From IMG/VR virus record IMGVR_UViG_3300017527_000330, positions 1 to 54,423 of that record: a stretch of 54,423 nucleotides of DNA. One strand, given 5' to 3'. Shown here piece after piece: positions 42,540 through 52,987 of the stretch. Below the pieces are notes generated by a model. It ran no database searches. It worked only from the letters and a program-made list of their open reading frames with translations, and was not told the DNA's origin. The stretch is from a virus. Position 1 is the stretch's first letter, and each line of letters opens with the position of its first letter. Both the position numbers and the translations under genes were made by a program.

Positions 42540-43376
42540 CTAAATATAGGTAGTTTCGTTGAAACCACCCTTCTTCCCTTTCCAATTTATTGCTATAGCA
42601 TTAGATGTATGTATTGATTCTTCGTGGGTACATTTCACAAACCAGTCGATAATGTCTTTGGTAATTTCCAATCTATGAGATATTTCTCTGATAGAATCTT
42701 CAACAAATTGTGGATAACTTTTAGCTGTCCCCGCAATCCATTTTTCATCACCCCTTTTGATTATTGGGTAAGGTATTGTTCTAACAGCGTTCTCCACCAA
42801 ATCAATAATATCTTCTAACCATACATACGCTCTTGGGTGTGTTTCGAGAAGTACATCAGCAAATGCTCTTTGAGCATGTGGATAACCATACTTACCTTCT
42901 TCAGTTAATGCCGCTGAACAAGGGCAATATGCTGAGTATTGAACTCTAACACTTTCATAAAACTTGAATTTCTTTTCAGTATAAACACTTTTGAAACTGC
43001 ATTTATAATACTGTGGAAATTCATTATTTGATAATGGTGACTTTTTTATCTTTGGTATTTTGAATTTAAATTTTATCGATGCAGTTGGTGAATCCATTGC
43101 ATACGTAAAATCTTTAAGTATACGTTCTATTGTGGTTCTTTTAAGAGGTTCTGTTAAATATTTTTGCAAGATTCTTATAAATCTTGACATGGATATACCT
43201 CTTATACTTTTATCGAGTTTACAGACCATCTCGGTTTTTGCATGGACCTGACAGGAGCCAGGAATCCCGTCCCTCAACATTAAGAAGAACGGGATTTCGA
43301 CATTATCAACGCCAACCCGATGTATCACCAAACTACGATTTGGTCTTTCGTTTTGGATATCAGGTAGATAGTCCAT
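42540..43376 (-). CDS. folE2: GTP cyclohydrolase IB (FolE2/MptA type)
   Basis: A 278-aa protein. The start MDYLPDIQNE is the usual FolE2 beginning (LPDxQ), followed by VGVDNVEIPF (21-30), RGISMSRF (59-66) and the active-site region YCPCSAAL (150-157) with the downstream PHAQRAF (166-172). The Cys of CPCS and the His of HxQR are the metal/catalytic residues of type IB cyclohydrolases. It converts GTP to 7,8-dihydroneopterin triphosphate, the entry to folate and 7-deazaguanine synthesis. ATG 43376 has GGAG 6 bases upstream, inside the end of the RNA polymerase beta gene, so the two genes overlap by 17 bases. Together with QueC at 13454 it indicates a deazaguanine pathway. Confidence 0.9.
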   Translation of the reverse strand: MDYLPDIQNERPNRSLVIHRVGVDNVEIPFFLMLRDGIPGSCQVHAKTEMVCKLDKSIRGISMSRFIRILQKYLTEPLKRTTIERILKDFTYAMDSPTASIKFKFKIPKIKKSPLSNNEFPQYYKCSFKSVYTEKKFKFYESVRVQYSAYCPCSAALTEEGKYGYPHAQRAFADVLLETHPRAYVWLEDIIDLVENAVRTIPYPIIKRGDEKWIAGTAKSYPQFVEDSIREISHRLEITKDIIDWFVKCTHEESIHTSNAIAINWKGKKGGFNETTYI

Positions 43377-46300
43377 GGTAATCTCCATTGTGATCAACAC
43401 CTAAAACAGTAAGATACGAATTCAATAGTCTGACAGATTCTGGTATTGGATCTTTGATGTCTGTCTCTATAATATTCTTGGGATCTATAAGACCTTTTAT
43501 ATAAGTGTTTTTAGTGTCGAAACAATCTGATTTAAGTGTGAACATTTCGTATAGGTTTTTCATTGCATCATGACCAATGAAACATGCAGTCTCCATTTCA
43601 CCACAACGTTGTCCACCTTTATGTTTTCGTCCACCTAGAGGTTGCAGAGTACGTTTTGCATAAGAACCTATCCCTCTGGCGGCAAGTTTATCATCAGCAA
43701 TATGCGTCATGCGGAAGCAATATATATATCCAACTGACACTGGATTCGTCACATATTTCTGTGATGGTGGATCATAAACCCTATATTTGAACTGAGAGTT
43801 TGTATATTCCATTGCAGCTTTGAGATCTTCAACTTTGATACTTTCAAATGGTGGTTGGATCACTGAAAAGTTTTCGATCCATTCTTTATCAATCTCATCT
43901 GGAAACTGTTCGATGAACTGTTCCAAATACCACCCAGTTTCAGTCTTATCGATGATTCGTATAAATTCGATAAAGTAATCTCGGAGAGCTGCTATATCAT
44001 TATTTTCTAACATTGCCAAAGCTTGGGTTTTAAGATCATGGACTGCCATTCCCAAATGAAGTTCATACAATTGTCCAATATTCATTCGAGAAATTATACC
44101 CAATGGATTCACACAGATATCTAGGTGACGTCCATCTTCTAATCTTGGCATTTTATCTTCTGGCATGATCGTTGAAATGACACCTTTATTTCCATGACGA
44201 TTCCCAATTTTATCACCAACTTTGATTGGCTTCATTTGAATTCCGTACATTTCAACATGGATTCCATCGATCTTTTCTTTCTTCATTTTATATTTACCAA
44301 CATTATTGAAATGAAGATGATCTTTGATGAAATCTGTAGCTATATCTTCTGGCAACTTGCTTTCAACAATCTTCTTGAGTTTATCTTGTTCGTCCTGTTG
44401 CTTTTGTAGGAATTTTTCGATCCACTCTCTATAGATTGGAACTTCCTCATTCCACGCATTTGCATATATATTAACGTCAGTGATGATAACACGTTTAGCA
44501 GTTTCCAGAATTGTTGGTTCATGAAAAGACGAGAAATGATCTTCTATTGTTAATTTCTGCATCTTGGCGTATACAGCTCCAGGTTCCAACTGAGAGTTGG
44601 GTGTTGGGAGCGGTTCATACACATTATGGCGTCCAAGGCGGTCCAGTAAAACTCTGTCAGGTTTCATTGTAAAAGATAGATCGACAAAGTGTACTGATGT
44701 TAGGGCTTCGCTTTCAAAAAGCCTATCTGATATAACAATACCATCCTCATAATTATATCCATAATGAATCATGATTCCTGCTAAAAGATTTTTACCAAAG
44801 ACTATATTTCCATCCTGGCAATAATCGCTTTCCGCCAGTATGTCACCAGCTTTAAACTTTTCACCTTCGTTAAAATACGTCCTCATGATATCGATATTTT
44901 GGACGTATATCTTTCGACTGGAAACATCAAAGACATCTCCAGTTCCATCGTCATAAAGTACAACCATGTGTCTTTGTGATAAATATAAAACCTCTCCACT
45001 TTTTGGTGCTATCTTAATGAAGTCAGTATACTTTGTGTATAGGTGTTCACAACCTGATTGAATCATAGGTTTGTCAAATGTCTTCAAAAGAATCGCTTGC
45101 CTCATTTGTGATGATGCCATTTGAAGTCTGGTCTGGTCATCATGCTCACAGAAAGGTGTGAATGAAACAGGTATGGAAATAGGTTGTTTCTCACAGTATT
45201 CGTCCGTGAAGCGCATGTTTTCATCCAGTGGGACGTTAGGTATTAGATTCTGAAGAACACCACAATTCTCCCTATCAGGCGTGTCTACAGGGCACATTCT
45301 GCCAAACATTGTTGGATAGATATCACGCAGATGTCTTGGTATATTTTCTCGCTTAAAACCGCCTGGACCGAGCAGACTTGCACGACTTAATTTCGTTAGC
45401 TTATCTATTGGATTAATACTGAAATCAAACTGTACGATCTCAGATACGTTGCAAGATGTGATCAGTTGTTTCGTGTTGGTATTAAACTTTGGTTTTCGAA
45501 CATCTCTATTGCTTAAACACATGTCGAAAATTATTTTACAGACATTGCTATAGATAGCATATTCAAAACATCGTACTCTTTTATTTTTAAGGATTGTGTC
45601 ATCTTGCTCACCACGTTTCAAAGCGATGATTATATCTTCAAGAACCGATCCTGTCTGCAAAAATTCTCTTGTGAATATATCGACCTTTGGAATAAGATCA
45701 AGAGAATATATAATGTCATTTCCTTTTGGGATTGTATTATATTTGGTGTAATGTCGTCCCAACTCCTTGATGAAATCATCTTGGGTATATCCAATTGATT
45801 CGTCGAGATACATCTTGATATCAAATAAGAATTTATCATAGATGTTATCCTCGGGTTGATCTTGTCCGATTATCGTTTCTAGATCCTCTTTCATCATTTC
45901 TTTGACAATTTCTGGACCATAAAACGACATCATGATCAATCCAAGTGGAACTCGTTTTCCCAAGTAGCCACACATGACGTATGGCATGTCTTTGGTTGGG
46001 TATACTAACAATGTACCAACATTGGTTCTCATCTTCAACGTTTCGCCTCTCATAACAATTGGAATATCAAAGAGTTGAAACAATGGAACCTTTTTTCTAC
46101 CATTGATGAATAAGTAGTTATTATCTATGAGTTTTGGAATATAAAGTTTTAATTCTATCTGAGATGAGCCCTTCGAAAATTTCATATGTAAGATTGAATA
46201 CAAAGTTTTCGAGAGCTCACCTTTTATGTTGCGTGAGCTCTTTATCTCAACTTTATCAATCGCAAACCCGATTTCTCCGACAGGCTGAACTATTTCCTGG

Positions 46301-46395
46301 ACAACAGGAAGAATTCTTTCGTAATCTCTTCTTCGTAATGTGAAGATGTTATTCTCTTCATCCCTAATCTTGTAATTTGGGTTTATTAAATTCAA
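43360..46395 (-). CDS. rpoB: RNA polymerase beta subunit, unsplit
   Basis: A 1011-aa protein with a TTG start behind AGGAGGGAA. Beta-subunit landmarks appear in order: SLLGPGGFKRE (340-350), MCPVDTPDRENCG (367-379), HYGYNYEDGIVISD, KVGDKIGNRHGNKGVIS, NPLGIISRMNIGQLYE, and near the end GGRKHKGGQRCGEME. All belong to conserved catalytic regions, so the protein should be active. It is shorter than E. coli RpoB (1342 aa) but not split, unlike the beta parts of phiKZ- and AR9-type phages. At the rifampicin site the E. coli Ser531 position is kept (Ser340), but the His526 position aligns with Lys335, which predicts poor drug binding. Confidence 0.95.
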   Translation of the reverse strand: MNLINPNYKIRDEENNIFTLRRRDYERILPVVQEIVQPVGEIGFAIDKVEIKSSRNIKGELSKTLYSILHMKFSKGSSQIELKLYIPKLIDNNYLFINGRKKVPLFQLFDIPIVMRGETLKMRTNVGTLLVYPTKDMPYVMCGYLGKRVPLGLIMMSFYGPEIVKEMMKEDLETIIGQDQPEDNIYDKFLFDIKMYLDESIGYTQDDFIKELGRHYTKYNTIPKGNDIIYSLDLIPKVDIFTREFLQTGSVLEDIIIALKRGEQDDTILKNKRVRCFEYAIYSNVCKIIFDMCLSNRDVRKPKFNTNTKQLITSCNVSEIVQFDFSINPIDKLTKLSRASLLGPGGFKRENIPRHLRDIYPTMFGRMCPVDTPDRENCGVLQNLIPNVPLDENMRFTDEYCEKQPISIPVSFTPFCEHDDQTRLQMASSQMRQAILLKTFDKPMIQSGCEHLYTKYTDFIKIAPKSGEVLYLSQRHMVVLYDDGTGDVFDVSSRKIYVQNIDIMRTYFNEGEKFKAGDILAESDYCQDGNIVFGKNLLAGIMIHYGYNYEDGIVISDRLFESEALTSVHFVDLSFTMKPDRVLLDRLGRHNVYEPLPTPNSQLEPGAVYAKMQKLTIEDHFSSFHEPTILETAKRVIITDVNIYANAWNEEVPIYREWIEKFLQKQQDEQDKLKKIVESKLPEDIATDFIKDHLHFNNVGKYKMKKEKIDGIHVEMYGIQMKPIKVGDKIGNRHGNKGVISTIMPEDKMPRLEDGRHLDICVNPLGIISRMNIGQLYELHLGMAVHDLKTQALAMLENNDIAALRDYFIEFIRIIDKTETGWYLEQFIEQFPDEIDKEWIENFSVIQPPFESIKVEDLKAAMEYTNSQFKYRVYDPPSQKYVTNPVSVGYIYCFRMTHIADDKLAARGIGSYAKRTLQPLGGRKHKGGQRCGEMETACFIGHDAMKNLYEMFTLKSDCFDTKNTYIKGLIDPKNIIETDIKDPIPESVRLLNSYLTVLGVDHNGDYHGLST

Positions 46396-46419: not shown

Positions 46420-49074
46420 TTATACTTTTTCGCCTCTTAATATAGCATCCATAATCCCTGAATAATTACCAGAGTTTATGATACCGTGTAGAATGCTTTT
46501 TCTTGGATTGGAAAAAGACATTGCCAATAACCAACTTTCCTGATCTGGCACTGATTGAATGCTGTGGAACTTTGGTTGATATTTATGTCTCTCTGGATGC
46601 AGTCTCCATTTTTTCATACCGACCCACATCAATTGAGCAACAACACATTCGTAGTGAACTTGAAATACGTTTCTATCATATACAGAGAATAGATTATGCA
46701 CCAAGTCTTCACACGTGGTATCTTTATCAAACTTATGCAACATTGTTGATACCGAAGAAAGATCACCAATGATGTCTTCCTGTTTCATATCTTTTTTGTC
46801 TGTGCTGTTTTTAATGATCGCTGATCCAGATGTATGGAAGGTTCGTAGAACGAGTTGGGTCGACTTCTCACCGAGAGTCTGAGCAGCAATAATTCCAATA
46901 TATGAGCTGTTCAATGTTTTATGAGACTCTCCGTAACATGCTCTACAAACTTTATCATCTTTGCAATATATTGGACTTCTAATTTTTATCTTTGTACCTA
47001 TGAACATGTCACAATTATCTCTTGTGATTAAAAGTCCATCTTTCGTCCAGCGGTTTACTAAAGATTCCGCTTTCTTTGCATCTGTCACTTCTACTTCAAG
47101 ACAATCCTCTGTTCCGCAATTGTCTATATCGGATAATTGAAGATTGGCACATGTAAATATAAGTTTTCTTGATAGATATCCAGAGGTTCCAGTGTTGAGA
47201 GCTGTATCCAACAATCCTTTTCGACAACCATAAGTTGAATCGAAAAACTCCGATTGTGTTAACCCATCTGTTAGATTATTGATGATAGGTTTATCATGAA
47301 TTTCTCCGCTAAAGTTTGAGATATATCCACGAGACAAACACAGCTGACGAGCTTGATCCCAACTACCACGAGCACCAGATTCAATCAAGTAGGCATACCT
47401 GAAATTATCTCTAAGAAATTGTATCACGTCTTCTGAACTAGACCTTCTTAAAGATTCGTATATGTCTCCAGTGTCGTAAATATGCTCCTTTACTTTATCA
47501 ACATCTTCTATCAAAAAGTCGTCCAATGCTAAAGTGCATCCTGATAGTGTTGAATAGTAAAATCCCTTCTTCTTTATCATATCCAATGTGTCAACGATAC
47601 TTTCTGGATAGCCTATTCGCACCTCGTCCAATATCTGTATTAAGCGCTTTTCGTTGACTGTACCCTTTACTGGTGGGTATCCATCAGGTAGCAATGAATT
47701 GAAATAGTCAATACCACTGAAATCATCCGTATCAAACTTACCATTGGTTAAGAAATAAATCCCCAACACAATATCCTGACTTGGCAATGTGGTTAACTGC
47801 TCATTAGCAGGGCTGACTAAATTCTTTGTGACAAACATCTTATCTTTAACTTCTTGAATCGTTTCTTCGGACAGTGGAATATACATGGCCATCTGATCAC
47901 CATCGAAGTCTGCATTAAACGGATGGCAGATTAATGGATGAACTTTGATAACCGAGTCCTTGGAAACCAATATGTTAAATCCCAACATCCCCAACCTATG
48001 TAATGATGGCTGTCTGTTTAGGATACACACTTTACCTTTTATGATCTCTTCACAAATTGGCAATAATTTCAAATGATTAAACTTAATACATCTGTTGATA
48101 TACATCAGGGCTGTTGGCAATTTCTTGAACATACCTAACCCGATGATTCGCTTGGCTATTTGTAGCTTAAAGATCTCCAAGATCATTTTGTATGGCAGTA
48201 CACATTGGTCAAGCGAGAGGGCTGGTTCTGGTACGATTACTGCACGTCCAGAAAAATCAATCCTTTTGCCTAGGATGTTCCCTCTTATCAAGCCTTCCTT
48301 TTTGGCAAGCTTCTCTAATATTTTTTCGTGTAACTCTTTAACATCTTTTTGTAAGTTTCTGAAGAAGGTGTAATAAATTGTTTTATCCCGAACTGCTTCC
48401 AAATGGGATGCTTGCATTACGTCCTTCTTATTTAATATCTGAATGTAATAGCGATTGATCTTATCCATTAACTGCTTTGATCCACTTTGAGTGGATGGAC
48501 GCAAGTCTGGTGGTAAGACAATGATCTCACGAATTAGAAAGTTATCTATATTCTTTACCAGCTTTCTCCAATTATCATCCTGTAAATCTTCATACATCAT
48601 TTCACTGAAAGTTTTAACAAGGACATGGATAGCTTCAGCTTTTTCGTACTTTGTTGCTGACTTTGGTATCTTCTCATCATCGTGGACAACAAATGTTTCA
48701 TCACCTATTACATATAGGATGCTCTTTTCATTTTTCATCAAATTATCTAAAGGAGTCTTAATTGCTTTACCACCCAATGATACAATCAAATCATACATGA
48801 GTGGATTGACGACAGGGATTGGGAGCACGATCTTTGCAAATCGTTTCCGTCTCTCATTACTATTTACGATGTCAACACCGCAGTCTTTACAATTACCTCC
48901 TGATTTTGAGATCCCGTAGTATGTACCACATTGACATGTATAGTTTTTTAAGGGACCGAATATCTGTTCCGAAAAGAGTCCTTCAGCATGAAAGAATCTC
49001 TTTTTAAATACTTTAACCGAAGTTATTGGTTGTAGTTCTTCACAAAATTTATTATAATCTAAAATATTTGGCAT
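46420..49074 (-). CDS. rpoC: RNA polymerase beta' subunit, unsplit
   Basis: An 884-aa protein. The start MPNILDYNKF at 49074 has GGAGG upstream; a longer reading from 49116 lies inside the preceding gene. Landmarks: an N-terminal zinc site with Cys47, Cys49, Cys62 and Cys65, LGKRIDFSGRAVI, the catalytic NADFDGDQ (387-394) with its three Asp residues, a bridge helix GARGSWDQARQL, STYGCRKGLLDTAL and SGYLSRKL, a second zinc site ending CRACYG, and the trigger-loop segment GEKSTQLVLRTFHTSG. It is much shorter than E. coli RpoC (1407 aa) but includes both catalytic halves in one chain. Its start overlaps the end of the E2-like gene by 16 bases. No sigma or alpha subunit is seen in the window. Confidence 0.95.
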   Translation of the reverse strand: MPNILDYNKFCEELQPITSVKVFKKRFFHAEGLFSEQIFGPLKNYTCQCGTYYGISKSGGNCKDCGVDIVNSNERRKRFAKIVLPIPVVNPLMYDLIVSLGGKAIKTPLDNLMKNEKSILYVIGDETFVVHDDEKIPKSATKYEKAEAIHVLVKTFSEMMYEDLQDDNWRKLVKNIDNFLIREIIVLPPDLRPSTQSGSKQLMDKINRYYIQILNKKDVMQASHLEAVRDKTIYYTFFRNLQKDVKELHEKILEKLAKKEGLIRGNILGKRIDFSGRAVIVPEPALSLDQCVLPYKMILEIFKLQIAKRIIGLGMFKKLPTALMYINRCIKFNHLKLLPICEEIIKGKVCILNRQPSLHRLGMLGFNILVSKDSVIKVHPLICHPFNADFDGDQMAMYIPLSEETIQEVKDKMFVTKNLVSPANEQLTTLPSQDIVLGIYFLTNGKFDTDDFSGIDYFNSLLPDGYPPVKGTVNEKRLIQILDEVRIGYPESIVDTLDMIKKKGFYYSTLSGCTLALDDFLIEDVDKVKEHIYDTGDIYESLRRSSSEDVIQFLRDNFRYAYLIESGARGSWDQARQLCLSRGYISNFSGEIHDKPIINNLTDGLTQSEFFDSTYGCRKGLLDTALNTGTSGYLSRKLIFTCANLQLSDIDNCGTEDCLEVEVTDAKKAESLVNRWTKDGLLITRDNCDMFIGTKIKIRSPIYCKDDKVCRACYGESHKTLNSSYIGIIAAQTLGEKSTQLVLRTFHTSGSAIIKNSTDKKDMKQEDIIGDLSSVSTMLHKFDKDTTCEDLVHNLFSVYDRNVFQVHYECVVAQLMWVGMKKWRLHPERHKYQPKFHSIQSVPDQESWLLAMSFSNPRKSILHGIINSGNYSGIMDAILRGEKV

Positions 49075-49511
49075 TGATTTCCTCCGTAAATTTCTTTTAG
49101 ACTTACTGAACGGCAAGCATCTGGAAGCTCATAACAATCATCTTCATTATATGTTCCAAGGCATATCACCAACGGTGCAATTAAATCTCTGTTGATTGGC
49201 ATACCTTTTAGTTTTCCCATACATACATAATTAGATACGGGGTCTTTATGAGGATGATGTTGATCTTCTCCAAGCTCGAGTTCCACTATATGTTTTCTTT
49301 GTACATCAGACATTAGACTAAATCTGGTCAACCTATATTTTTCACTCAGGTCCACCAAGTAAAATTCACCTTTATGTTGACAATGTGTTGGTTTAATAGA
49401 ACATTTAAATTGATATCTTATTCTTCCAGTAGAACATCCTATTACTGCTTTATCAAATTCAATCCACGTGTTTTCATTTCCAACTTTTAAATTGTTGAAT
49501 CTATTGGGCAT
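49059..49511 (-). CDS. E2-like (UBC-fold) conjugating protein
   Basis: A 150-aa protein. The key region is HHPHKDPVSNYVCMGKLKG (residues 85-103): HPH followed after eight residues by a Cys in a hydrophobic-Cys-Met-Gly setting. This resembles the HPH...CLG signature of prokaryotic E2-like proteins, with Cys97 as the likely catalytic residue. Strands before it (HIVELELGED) fit the UBC fold order. Its size is that of a minimal E2 domain. The start codon overlaps the stop of the second E1-like gene (TAATG). The call is mainly based on this motif plus the neighbours (two E1-like proteins, Ubl, JAB); fold prediction would settle it. I see no other close family match. Confidence 0.65.
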   Translation of the reverse strand: MPNRFNNLKVGNENTWIEFDKAVIGCSTGRIRYQFKCSIKPTHCQHKGEFYLVDLSEKYRLTRFSLMSDVQRKHIVELELGEDQHHPHKDPVSNYVCMGKLKGMPINRDLIAPLVICLGTYNEDDCYELPDACRSVSLKEIYGGNQCQIF

Positions 49512-50323
49512 TAAGCACCCCCGTATTCACGGAGATTATAAACATCAATGCATCCATCTTTTATATTCACCATATAGATACAATTATGTAGTAGCATTGC
49601 ATCCCGAAGAAATCCTATGGCTATAGAAAATGGAACGGTTTGTGGATAGTTGTGTTTGATATCTGGATTAAGTATCTTTCGAATGTTAATGTTATCACCG
49701 TCTCGAACATCATTTAAATCACTTGAAAAACAAGATGCTGACGCTATCTCTAAATGATTTTGAAGCACTGTATTCTTTTTCTGTTTAACTAAACATTTAA
49801 ATCCAGGTTCAACAGATTGAGTTGATAAAGGCATGTGAGTAGATAATTGATTCTTTTTTAAATATTGTATACCGTTTGACATTGTAACATCTTTTGCCAA
49901 ACGCCCCGCTTGAGATAATTCCTCCTTCTCAAGTTCAATTAAATACTTTCCAGGTTTGTCCTCATCAAATACAACTTCTTCGCAATCGATTCTGAGACTT
50001 TTACCAACAATTGAGAATTTCATATCGGTATCGATATTTCGATTTAAAACATCCCGACAATCGATCATCTCATCAACCGAAGGGAGGTCTATATCTTTAA
50101 TGTCTGCATTTACGGGAACGAATCTGCACTGTGAAATTTTGCTTTTAAGTGCGGTAACTTTCGGTTGGTTTACATCTATTTTGGTGTAGATCGAGTTTCT
50201 GAGATTTCTCTTTTCTACTATATCTGGGTCAACTGCGTAAATGGTATCAACGTGGTGTTGTAAATTACTCGCAATGTATCCACCAAGTGAACCGACCCCT
50301 ACGAGTCCGATTGTTTTTCTCAT
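49511..50323 (-). CDS. Second E1/ThiF-like protein, possibly non-canonical
   Basis: A 270-aa Rossmann-fold protein. The nucleotide-binding loop is GVGSLGG (residues 9-15), and VDPDIVEKRNLRNS (31-44) follows with the Asp pair and Asn-Leu-Arg that adenylate-forming E1/ThiF enzymes use. The second half lacks the cross-over Cys segment seen in the other E1-like protein; Cys residues are present (for example SASCFSS) but not in a recognised context. It may be an adenylating enzyme for another substrate, or a partner subunit, as in heterodimeric eukaryotic E1 enzymes. The C-terminus is YGGA. The start is separated from the Ubl gene by a 79-base gap with a hairpin. Confidence 0.75.
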   Translation of the reverse strand: MRKTIGLVGVGSLGGYIASNLQHHVDTIYAVDPDIVEKRNLRNSIYTKIDVNQPKVTALKSKISQCRFVPVNADIKDIDLPSVDEMIDCRDVLNRNIDTDMKFSIVGKSLRIDCEEVVFDEDKPGKYLIELEKEELSQAGRLAKDVTMSNGIQYLKKNQLSTHMPLSTQSVEPGFKCLVKQKKNTVLQNHLEIASASCFSSDLNDVRDGDNINIRKILNPDIKHNYPQTVPFSIAIGFLRDAMLLHNCIYMVNIKDGCIDVYNLREYGGA

Positions 50324-50362
50324 TTACATCTAATTCCCCTTTCTCTAGAGTGGGTTAATGTA

Positions 50363-50380
50363 GGGGACGGGATTGTCCCC
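50363..50380. promoter_or_regulatory. Hairpin between Ubl and second E1-like genes
   Basis: GGGGAC and GTCCCC form a perfect 6-bp GC-rich stem with a six-base loop. No T run follows on the minus strand, so it is more likely an RNA-stability or attenuation element than a full terminator. It could raise Ubl levels over the downstream genes. Confidence 0.45.
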
Positions 50381-50402
50381 CACGACGATAGTCAGTTACT
50401 GA

Positions 50403-51032
50403 TTAGCAGCCCTTATCGTAGGCCTCGTTGACGAACTCGACAACATCGCCTTCCGCGATAATGTAATCATTGGTGACTTCCTCACCGTTGACGAGCACGA
50501 TACGAGCGTAAGGATTGACGTTGAGTACCTGACCCAAGGTTTTCTCTACTTCGTAGATGGACTTTCCAACGACAGGATAGTTGTTGGACATGCTACCAGA
50601 AGAGATGGTGACCGTGATGTTAGAAGCACTAACACCGCGAGAAATCATACCCTTGAATTCCAGATTCTGGATGTCTCCATCAAGAACCTTGCTTTCTTTC
50701 TTGGAAGGATTTCCCATGGCCTCAGCCATACCGTTGGGAGCTTCAGAAACTTCTTCCCAGGCTTCGTCAGGCTCAGTATTCCAATCTTCATTGTCATTGA
50801 AGTCGCTGTTGAGATCAGAGAACATGTTCTCATCACCATTATCATCACCAGCGTCTTCAAAAGAAGCCTGACCAGTGGACATAAAGTAATTCCACAGAGC
50901 CTGAATCAGAAAAGGCTTTTGTTTCTTGCTCAGTCCGACGAATTCAGGATTCTCGTCACCAAGGTCAACGACCATTCTGCGAAGAGATTCAACGTTCATT
51001 TCATTAAGTTCAGTCCAGGTAAATTTTTGCAT
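50403..51032 (-). CDS. Ubiquitin-like protein with SAP/Rho-N-like N-terminal domain
   Basis: A 209-aa protein. Residues 5-50 (WTELNEMNVESLRRMV, then LSKKQKPFLIQALWNYF) look like a small helix-extension-helix of SAP/Rho-N type, often nucleic-acid binding. Residues 58-96 are an acidic linker. Residues 138-209 form a beta-grasp domain of ThiS/MoaD type: ITVTISSG, a central helix, ARIVLVNGEEV, then IIAEGDVVEFV. The chain ends DKGC, with Gly-Cys where ubiquitin has Gly-Gly. ATG 51032 follows AAGGAG. Flanking E1-like genes, an E2-like gene and a JAB gene argue that it is conjugated. Three 60-base lines I counted in this gene are 42-48% GC, against 27-32% for two lines in the neighbouring E1 gene, so it may be highly expressed. 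Confidence 0.8.
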   Translation of the reverse strand: MQKFTWTELNEMNVESLRRMVVDLGDENPEFVGLSKKQKPFLIQALWNYFMSTGQASFEDAGDDNGDENMFSDLNSDFNDNEDWNTEPDEAWEEVSEAPNGMAEAMGNPSKKESKVLDGDIQNLEFKGMISRGVSASNITVTISSGSMSNNYPVVGKSIYEVEKTLGQVLNVNPYARIVLVNGEEVTNDYIIAEGDVVEFVNEAYDKGC

Positions 51033-51036
51033 TTGT

Positions 51037-51783
51037 TTAATTCTCCTTATTGATTTTTGGTTTTCTAATGTGGGAACCACATTGAAGTTTTTCAATATCA
51101 AAGTAGGCTTCGCCTATTTGATTATTTATATCTATGTTTCCGACTAACAAATTGTAATAGGCACATGACATAAGGGTAGCGACCATGATGTTTGTGAAAA
51201 GCAACTGAGGCGCTGATTCTTGTAGCTCCTCACATGACAATTCATAAGGTGCCTTATCGCGAGGATTCTCGATCTCGGGATGATAAGCACACAAATCAGC
51301 AGTGATCTCTTTACCAGCTATCTTCTGAAAGATTTGTATGTTACCAACTACGACATCGTTCCCTCCTGATATAAGTATAATATCATTCAAATTTTTACAG
51401 TGTTTCGAAACTATCGACCTTGTTTTATGATTGTCAACGCCCATGAAGACTGTATCACCTTCGACAAGATGTGTTTTCATATTGTCTCCAGATAGATATT
51501 CTTCAATACAATCAAAAGCAAAATTATCTAAAGTATATCCTGGAGGGACATACTTATCATACTCAGATTTTAATTCAAGCATTTTTATTCGTGCTTTGTT
51601 TCCGAGGTTCGTGAAATTTTGCCTTGGTCGATTTAACGAATCGTATGTATCTCCATCAATGCACGTGATGGTAATCTTCTTATTTTGCAGCATTGTAAAT
51701 CTGGCATACTTCGCTATAAACAGAACCAGCCATGATCCAATGCCACCCAATCCAATTATTTTTATGTTGGTATCTTTTGTCAT
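51037..51783 (-). CDS. E1/ThiF-like activating enzyme
   Basis: A 248-aa protein starting MTKDTNIKIIGLGGIGSW, with the ATP-binding loop GLGGIG (11-16), Asp43 and Asp45 in IDGD, NRPRQNF (51-57) matching the E1 Arg/Asn region, and GVDNHKTR (115-122). A Cys in LSCEELQESAPQ (Cys184) lies where the thioester or persulfide Cys of this family is expected, and the sequence around it resembles PRTRC-type ThiF proteins. It should adenylate the Ubl C-terminus. The start is one base after the stop of the JAB gene, and AAAGGAT serves as ribosome binding site. A longer reading exists upstream, but it lies inside the JAB gene and is not supported. Confidence 0.85.
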   Translation of the reverse strand: MTKDTNIKIIGLGGIGSWLVLFIAKYARFTMLQNKKITITCIDGDTYDSLNRPRQNFTNLGNKARIKMLELKSEYDKYVPPGYTLDNFAFDCIEEYLSGDNMKTHLVEGDTVFMGVDNHKTRSIVSKHCKNLNDIILISGGNDVVVGNIQIFQKIAGKEITADLCAYHPEIENPRDKAPYELSCEELQESAPQLLFTNIMVATLMSCAYYNLLVGNIDINNQIGEAYFDIEKLQCGSHIRKPKINKEN

Positions 51784-51784
51784 G

Positions 51785-52987
51785 TTATCCTTTGAGCGCC
51801 ATCGCGTCTTCCATGGTAAATTTCTGTGCTGCATGCTCAAGTTCACATGAAGGACAAATGTTTCTCTTTTCTGGATCATCAACAAAGAACGTAGTTCCAC
51901 AAGTACATTTGATTGAATTACTCAAAGCACTCTTCTTGATTGATTGGAATTCAGTGTATGACAGCGCCCTGTTCTTCCGCTTGACACCATCTTCATCTAT
52001 CTCTCCAGGTTGAAATGTGGGTTTATCATGTTCGAACATTCCACCCAAAGGTGCACTGAAGTCATGGTCACCATAATAAGGTGGTATATCCTGGTCAAGA
52101 TTAACTGGATCTAAATCATCTTCAAACTCAATATCCTCTAACAATGATTGAGTCTTCAACTCTTTGAACACACATTCCTCACAGGGTGCCAACTTTTTTC
52201 CAGTGTTAGTCTCCCCCATCTTATTCCAATCATCCCAATTAAACGTTGTTTGTTTTTGGGTTGCTGGAGCTGTGTATCCACTTCTGGCCCACATTGCTGT
52301 GTACATTGGTGTAACCAGCTTTTTATATTTTGGGATTTCAACAATAGTGCTTTCATCAAGGACTTGATACATATCTGATTGTTGCACTTTTTGTTTTGTC
52401 AGTCTAATACCTTCAATATAATGACATGGATCAACTAATATTCGCTTTCCGTTGACAACTACAGATGCAGATATCGAACAGAAAGGCAACTGAGTGACAT
52501 GTCCAACGGTGATATGCAACCCATCAAAATACCTCTCATCGTTTACATCTGTTCCAGAATGAAAAGCTCCAAAGTCTGCATGACTGTGTATTGTTCCGCA
52601 ATTTAGGTATGATGGACCAATAACTATATCGTATTTACAACCTCCACCACTCACTCTTTGGTGTGGAACCGTATAATCGATTTTCTTTAAATTTGGTTTT
52701 GTTGGGTGAGTCTTCAAATTCAAAATCGTTCCAGCTTCACTTCTGTGTTCCTTGAAGATCATACCGAAGAATCCAACAACTTCACCAAATGTTTTTGCCT
52801 TGATCTTTGGCAGATTCATTCTGGCATATTCTGGCAATACTTCACCCATGTCTATCGTTTGAACCTGTACCATTGAATCTATCAAACCTGTTTTCTTTTT
52901 AAGATAAATATGTTTTGACACAATGTAACATGCGTCATCTTCAGGTAAGACATCTGGCATCTTATCGAAATAATAAACTGGTATCAT
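51785..52987 (-). CDS. JAB/JAMM-domain peptidase with C-terminal zinc ribbon
   Basis: A 400-aa protein. The JAMM motif IHSHADFGAFHSGTD (133-147) gives His134, His136, Ser144 and Asp147 in the exact H-x-H-x7-S-x2-D pattern. A Glu around residues 80-84 may be the catalytic acid. The motif context (HSH...FHSGTD) is very like PRTRC protein A. After a linker with a Cys pair (CEEC), residues 361-381 hold a zinc ribbon, CTC and CPSC. JAMM peptidases cleave isopeptide bonds or mature Ubl C-termini. It is the first recognisable gene of the Ubl cassette and lies one base from the E1 gene. No signal peptide. Confidence 0.9.
   Translation of the reverse strand: MIPVYYFDKMPDVLPEDDACYIVSKHIYLKKKTGLIDSMVQVQTIDMGEVLPEYARMNLPKIKAKTFGEVVGFFGMIFKEHRSEAGTILNLKTHPTKPNLKKIDYTVPHQRVSGGGCKYDIVIGPSYLNCGTIHSHADFGAFHSGTDVNDERYFDGLHITVGHVTQLPFCSISASVVVNGKRILVDPCHYIEGIRLTKQKVQQSDMYQVLDESTIVEIPKYKKLVTPMYTAMWARSGYTAPATQKQTTFNWDDWNKMGETNTGKKLAPCEECVFKELKTQSLLEDIEFEDDLDPVNLDQDIPPYYGDHDFSAPLGGMFEHDKPTFQPGEIDEDGVKRKNRALSYTEFQSIKKSALSNSIKCTCGTTFFVDDPEKRNICPSCELEHAAQKFTMEDAMALKG

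Follow-up and report, generated by a model that had tools for sequence, protein, structure and literature searches.

Can a bacteriophage encode a complete pathway for attaching a ubiquitin-like protein (Ubl) to other proteins, and what would such a pathway do for the phage? The question is raised by five adjacent genes in a stretch of viral DNA of 54,423 bases, the complete IMG/VR record IMGVR_UViG_3300017527_000330, which is a fragment of a virus genome and is called the window below. An earlier reading of this DNA made from its letters alone (the sequence-only reading) had described a complete conjugation cassette of five consecutive minus-strand genes, encoding a JAMM peptidase, an E1 enzyme, a Ubl, a second E1-like protein and an E2-like protein. 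All five open reading frames (ORFs) were confirmed; they are packed head to tail on the minus strand and lead into rpoC, a gene of the phage's own RNA polymerase. Taken together, the evidence described below makes it probable that the five genes constitute a reversible Ubl conjugation system, a PRTRC-like variant forming part of the core gene set of a clade of jumbo phages. The genes and the domains of the Ubl, with gene starts corrected through alignment with relatives, are as follows.

51785..52987, minus strand: JAB/JAMM metalloprotease (JAB), 400 amino acids (aa), with an N-terminal domain and a Cys-rich C-terminal segment; HxHx7SxxD motif at 52547-52588
51037..51783, minus strand: ThiF/E1 adenylyltransferase (E1a), 248 aa; Pfam ThiF match at 1e-9, Cys184 at 51232-51234
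50403..51032, minus strand: Ubl precursor, 209 aa; from sequence and model, a Rho_N-like domain, an acidic linker, a beta-grasp domain and the tail DKGC
50874..51032, minus strand: N-terminal helical domain of the Ubl, Rho_N/SAP-like, roughly residues 1-53; modelled as three helices at pLDDT 89-98
50406..50621, minus strand: beta-grasp domain of the Ubl, residues 138-209; modelled as strand-strand-helix-strand-strand-strand
49511..50323, minus strand: second ThiF-like protein (E1b), 270 aa; Pfam ThiF match at 8.7e-9, REYGGA C-terminus at 49514-49531
49059..49511, minus strand: E2-like protein, 150 aa; HPH at 49248-49256, Cys97 at 49221-49223

The alignments place the start of E1a at the ATG at 51783 and not at 51900, so that C223 of the 287-aa ORF is C184 of the corrected protein, and they place the start of the Ubl at the ATG at 51032. 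The E2-like gene and rpoC overlap by 16 bp (rpoC ATG 49074); the sequence-only reading had placed the cassette upstream of, and overlapping, RNA polymerase genes. The same arrangement was then sought in other phages. Sixty-nine distinct contigs carry RpoC, six of them cut by the contig end, and the identical five-gene order precedes rpoC in 60 of the 63 with enough upstream sequence. In the three exceptions (L093, L096 and L091) the set is incomplete or lacking: L093 has E1b-E2 without JAB-E1a-Ubl, and L096 has JAB-E1a-Ubl without E1b-E2. Both this shared order and the way in which the distances of all five proteins follow RpoC (r 0.55-0.80, Mantel p 0.001) exceed chance, and ratios of nonsynonymous to synonymous substitution rates of 0.03-0.52 in close pairs indicate purifying selection on all six genes. 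At the loci of distant RpoC lineages (L109, at 40% identity, and L113-L116, at 31-32%) the cassette is lacking, and neither the complete L109 record nor that of L113 has a match to the Ubl, E2-like protein or E1a. Searches of GenBank phage records with E1a, JAB and E1b yielded partial relatives and no full cassette. One contig labelled as Thermoplasmatales (L186) was considered as an archaeal system and rejected; it holds the whole phage cassette with rpoC, and the label is taken as mis-binning.

The exact HxHx7SxxD motif reported by the sequence-only reading occurs in the window JAB and in 59 of 61 sequences of the family, and it is invariant in the intact ones, with conservation of 1.00 at H134, H136, S144, D147 and the upstream E84. 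The JAB matches PRTRC_A by hhalign (98.6%, E 1.5e-15), and its profile matches in the PDB are all RPN11-type deubiquitinases (best E 0.003); the direct match to TIGR03735 (PRTRC_A) is weak (E 0.22), and that of the window protein to Pfam Prok-JAB (0.011) falls below the cut-off. Across 61 sequences of E1a, the GxGGxG and D..D motifs, R93-Q94, K102/K106 and one Cys are invariant or nearly so (mostly 0.97-1.00), which bears out the description of a ThiF/E1 enzyme with a positioned cysteine. From its motif context we read this residue, Cys184, as the likely counterpart of the thioester cysteine in MoeB/Uba4-type enzymes. E1a matches PRTRC_ThiF along its length (hhalign 99%, E 4.8e-18, 215 columns), with a direct match to TIGR03736 (PRTRC_ThiF) of 2e-5, below that model's cut-off, and its PDB profile matches are UBA5 and MoeB. 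The comparison with PRTRC that had been drawn earlier is thus upheld for both proteins.

The third protein had been called ThiS-like, with a beta-grasp fold proposed for residues 138-209, and both statements have held up. The window protein matches ThiS weakly (0.011), but across 58 members TGS matches 41 and ThiS 32, and the top Foldseek matches of the model are nearly all of the ubiquitin/SUMO/NEDD8 type (probability mostly 0.8-0.99, best E 0.017). The N-terminal domain is matched by the Rho_N profile in 44 of the 58 members (best 3.8e-13) and in the PDB mostly by Rho factors (best E 0.003), and the linker between the two domains is modelled at low confidence. At the C-terminus, K207 and G208 are invariant in the alignment. 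In 39 members nothing follows this Lys-Gly, 17 have a Cys after it and the remainder carry other tails, the extensions ranging from 0 to 67 residues. The longest, in L074 (6143-6772), resembles by eye homing-endonuclease-type repeat motifs. In L105 (5744-6703) the gene encodes a polyubiquitin-like head-to-tail fusion, Rho_N-Ubl/Rho_N-Ubl, with an internal AGRKG and a second unit ending in its own KG; the two units differ in sequence, arguing that the tandem is not a simple assembly duplicate. Extended and tandem precursors of this kind require a protease, and the JAB gene adjoins. The conserved Gly, with removable-looking extensions after it, would be the processed site of conjugation. Additional Ubl matches in L077, L080 and L108, considered as second Ubls, turned out to be Rho_N-only proteins, encoded upstream of the cassette at a distance of a few kb (L108 2161-2523, L077 2052-2489, L080 2792-3118).

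The Ubl gene also stands out in codon usage. Its GC content at third codon positions is 0.47, against 0.15-0.33 in other window genes, and in 55 of 60 contigs no other gene of the cassette deviates as far in codon usage. This suggests that the Ubl is highly expressed, and the abundance predicted from such an outlier gene fits a stoichiometric modifier. The idea that the gene copies the codon use of the capsid gene was rejected, the agreement being partial only.

E1b was correctly described as a second E1-like protein: like E1a it exceeds the Pfam ThiF cut-off, and the two match each other by hhalign at 97.3%. It retains the glycines of the Rossmann fold and a motif of the D-C-R-D type, and a regular-expression search found the Arg-Gln that follows the D.D motif to be absent in 64 of 64 members. 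E1b resembles MoeB and Uba4 and has weak PDB matches to Cap2 and BubCD; in a two-part E1 it may form the degenerate half. The C-terminus of E1b is conserved as PETG(A/G)A or nearly so, with Ala as the final residue in 62 of 64 members. Two explanations of this region were discarded, namely that it is a second Ubl, as suggested by eye (hhalign probability just 0.9%), and that the PETGAA tail arises as a side effect of a ribosome-binding site or of overlapping genes (the Ala is encoded by all four of its codons, and the offset of the E2 start ranges from -7 to +14). The E1b and E2-like genes adjoin or overlap, and neither is found in the bacterial relatives of JAB-E1a-Ubl; E1b-E2 therefore looks like one added module.

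The E2-like protein was predicted to be UBC-like, and here the outcome is divided. Across an alignment of 57 sequences H86 and C97 do not vary, and P87 and N88 are conserved at >90%, giving an HPN motif that reads HPH in the window. HPN followed by Cys is the canonical order of ubiquitin E2s, and the motif turns up in 4 of 3150 shuffles. The family profile has only three PDB matches at E<10, all of them ubiquitin E2s aligned at HPN..C (E 0.08-1.3), and UQ_con is the Pfam family that matches most members, yet just 2 of 57 (best E 0.0059). The model (pLDDT 91) has a beta-meander, HPN, Cys and helix in E2 order, with the N-terminal helix missing. The top PDB probability for this model (0.66) belongs to 8ow1_P, which we take to be an RWD-type kinetochore protein and have not counted. 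The fifth protein is thus a candidate E2 by motif and weak profile matches and not by fold, and it is the weakest part of the cassette. The claim of a complete cassette fares likewise: JAB, E1, Ubl and the second E1-like protein are well supported, and the E2 stands by its motif and profiles but not by its fold. Of the two folds whose absence the sequence-only reading had named as refuting it, the beta-grasp is favoured by the analysis, and for the UBC fold the outcome is negative or equivocal.

Several observations weigh against a conjugation system. Foldseek found no UBC fold for the E2-like model, the best match having E 0.45 in the PDB and 0.034 among viral models (BFVD). A tighter E2-like profile brought no improvement, giving one E2 among five weak PDB matches, and this protein is the least conserved member of the cassette (27% mean identity). 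The terminal pair of the Ubl is Lys-Gly instead of Gly-Gly, nothing resembling an E3 gene was identified, and the codon shifts of the Ubl and capsid genes agree only in part (r 0.13-0.65 in the four phages computed). The adjacency to rpoC, finally, may reflect a shared transcript only.

From the composition, motifs, gene order and co-inheritance of the cassette, and from the tandem and extended Ubl precursors, we infer a cycle in which every biochemical step, the role of E1b and the target are put conditionally. The JAB would trim the abundant Ubl precursor and so expose its C-terminal Gly. E1a would adenylate this Gly and accept the Ubl on Cys184, with E1b, which has Rossmann motifs and no Arg-Gln, acting as a non-catalytic partner in the handover to the E2-like protein. 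The latter would hold the Ubl on Cys97 and transfer it to lysines of the target, from which the JAB could also strip it. Conjugation by this route would put a Rho_N nucleic-acid-binding domain on the target. Transcription complexes are the likeliest site of action, given that the operon leads into rpoC-rpoB and follows rpoC throughout the clade; that the complexes in question are those of the virus is guesswork based on where the genes lie and on Rho_N. The most specific version of the proposal, in which a heterodimeric E1a-E1b tagging system of the clade core attaches a Rho_N-bearing modifier mainly to the phage multisubunit RNA polymerase or its transcription complexes and so exerts covalent control of transcription, is offered tentatively and is on the unlikely side.

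Other functions can be built from the same parts. The Ubl, E1 and JAB could yield a ThiS/Urm1/TtuB-like thiocarboxylate for the thiolation of tRNA or nucleotides, with the E2-like protein doing something else. The resemblance of E1a and E1b to MoeB and Uba4, the ThiS/TGS-like character of the Ubl and the nearby folE2, a gene of the nucleotide-modification type, would suit such a sulfur carrier, but it is made very unlikely by a Ubl that lacks a Gly-Gly tail, by an apparent abundance and a tandem precursor that suit a modifier better, and by the protein with an invariant His..Cys that almost always accompanies the set. Use of the Ubl in virion morphogenesis, either joined late and in quantity to virion proteins or employed in assembly in the manner suggested for the lambda tail I protein with JAB, comes to mind from its predicted high expression, from the terminase and virion genes that follow further downstream on the same strand, and from the annotation of a related E1 of Salmonella phage Arash as a structural protein. 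However, the immediate neighbours are RNA polymerase genes and not tail genes, the lambda case involves no E1 or E2 (PMC1779556), and the Arash label is annotation only, so that this role is unlikely.

Bacterial Ubl systems act in conflicts with phages, as published work states (PMC10097602; for Bil, as cited in PMC12660748), and the cassette might accordingly serve counter-defence by tagging host immune proteins, or its JAB might remove the Ubl tags of a Bil-type host defence. This seems quite improbable for a set that is syntenic throughout the clade and largely co-inherited with RpoC, unlike patchy accessory genes, and the stripping of tags would not by itself need a complete conjugating set; the conservation of the cassette, and its inheritance mostly together with the polymerase, favour a core role over an optional one in counter-defence. 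It is similarly doubtful that the five genes are homologous parts of a conserved operon without forming one pathway, for example with E1b-E2 separate from JAB-E1a-Ubl. L093 and L096 do split the set in opposite ways, and the E2 fold is unproven, but all five genes occur together in the great majority of contigs, and just these two split the set. A reversible Ubl conjugation system remains the favoured reading.

The genes that surround the cassette help to place its phage. The window encodes a terminase and proteins of the tail sheath, baseplate and tail fibres, together with FolE2 and unsplit RpoB and RpoC, the last three encoded as follows.

46420..49074, minus strand: rpoC, beta' subunit of the phage multisubunit RNA polymerase, 884 aa; start (ATG 49074) corrected by alignment
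43360..46395, minus strand: rpoB, beta subunit, 1011 aa; matches PHROG RNA polymerase beta families
42540-43400, minus strand: FolE2-type GTP cyclohydrolase; PF02649 at 3e-59, overlapping the end of rpoB

The window RpoC is 57-85% identical to those of the first four cassette-bearing relatives, and rpoB adjoins rpoC in relatives L002-L005 as well. Large relatives, found via RpoC or the cassette, span 203-322 kb, and a strong match to PF07068 (T4-type, Gp23-type capsid) occurs in 8 of 8. Weinheimer and Aylward (2020) described the mReC clade of jumbo phages by unsplit RpoB and RpoC, a PF07068 capsid and a PF03237 terminase. RpoB and a terminase are present in the window and the capsid in the large relatives, no capsid gene being seen within the 54,423-base fragment. 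Judged by marker genes and not by a joint tree, the cassette-bearing phages, which are uncultured, are probably RNA-polymerase-encoding jumbo phages of this clade. The mReC paper nowhere mentions ubiquitin, ThiF or JAB, and no account of the cassette was found in the open-licence literature, of limited coverage, that included the mReC and huge-phage papers. FolE2 could supply a 7-deazaguanine (queuosine-type) modification of DNA or tRNA. Extra ORFs, none of them in the window, recur in the Ubl-E1b and E2-rpoC gaps of L065, L112, L123 and other relatives: one of about 80 aa is PC4-like by eye (the L065 example has no Pfam match), another, of about 190 aa, shares the conserved motif ARGVAICS, and just before rpoC there are one or two measuring about 70-80 aa.

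Bacterial Ubl conjugation is best known from defences or plasmids, whereas here it would be a stable core phage operon tied to RNA polymerase. If the cassette does conjugate, ubiquitin-like tags serve phages in their own biology, and both the tandem precursor and a possibly two-part E1 become relevant to the origin of features of eukaryotic systems. The set is small enough to be rebuilt in E. coli, which makes the proposal directly testable. In the eukaryotic heterodimeric E1s, NAE1-UBA3 and SAE1-SAE2, a catalytic and a degenerate E1 half work together with an E2; a likeness to these is proposed for E1a-E1b, a putative pair, and no SCCH or UFD domain was identified.

Among phages, the lambda-type tail proteins I (Ubl) and K (JAB) provide a precedent for phage-encoded Ubl and JAB, but they lack E1 and E2 and belong to a tail-gene context (PMC1779556). 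JAB-E1 pairs occur in Salmonella phage Arash and Bacillus phage KLEB27-3. In Arash (L006 1519-4539) the gene before JAB and E1 has by eye a PRTRC_B-like NMCVG motif, and both it and the E1 are annotated as structural proteins; in the crAss-like phage cr111_1 (L163 3773-8319) a metalloprotease-ThiF pair follows an ORF whose start is Ubl-like by eye. Chromosomal JAB-E1-Ubl operons in metagenome-assembled genomes (Methylomirabilota, Planctomycetota and others) have an E1 of 31-46% identity, an adjoining JAB and, in several, a small Ubl with a P(A/S)G(E/R/K)KG-type tail; they differ in that this Ubl is short and without Rho_N, E1b and an HPN-type E2 are absent, and an AAA+ ATPase adjoins in two loci. 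At one Planctomycetota locus (L199 1814-5864), an AAA+ ATPase with a proteasomal-ATPase OB domain, a Ubl, a 279-aa protein of unassigned family and JAB-E1 are neighbours, which hints at Ubl-linked proteolysis in bacteria. The Bil/Bub and CBASS Cap2-Cap3 systems share E1, E2 and JAB parts with the cassette, including the proteins weakly matched by E1b, but they are cellular and differently arranged, whereas the cassette consists of separate phage genes whose E1a and JAB are closest to PRTRC proteins.

The plasmid-borne PRTRC system, which we identify with operon type 6d of Iyer, Burroughs and Aravind 2006 (PMC1779556), is the nearest comparison. E1a resembles PRTRC_ThiF and the JAB resembles PRTRC_A, a stand-alone E2-like gene is found in both systems, and the Ubl tail, (A)G-x-K-G, is as in PRTRC_C, although the alignment to the latter covers the 11-residue tail alone (probability 8.7%). 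No match to ParB, PRTRC_E or PRTRC_F was seen for the flanking ORF or in the PHROG/Pfam scans of the window, a contig fragment on which NCBIfam models were applied to some ORFs only. The cassette is not classed as PRTRC, because the E2-like protein was tested as one of its defining parts, PRTRC_B, and rejected (hhalign probability 0.33%). In PRTRC_B the Cys comes first and a conserved His lies downstream (cf. PMC1779556), whereas in the cassette His-Pro-Asn precedes the Cys; and the cassette differs further in carrying Rho_N on its Ubl, a second E1 and RNA polymerase genes as its neighbours.

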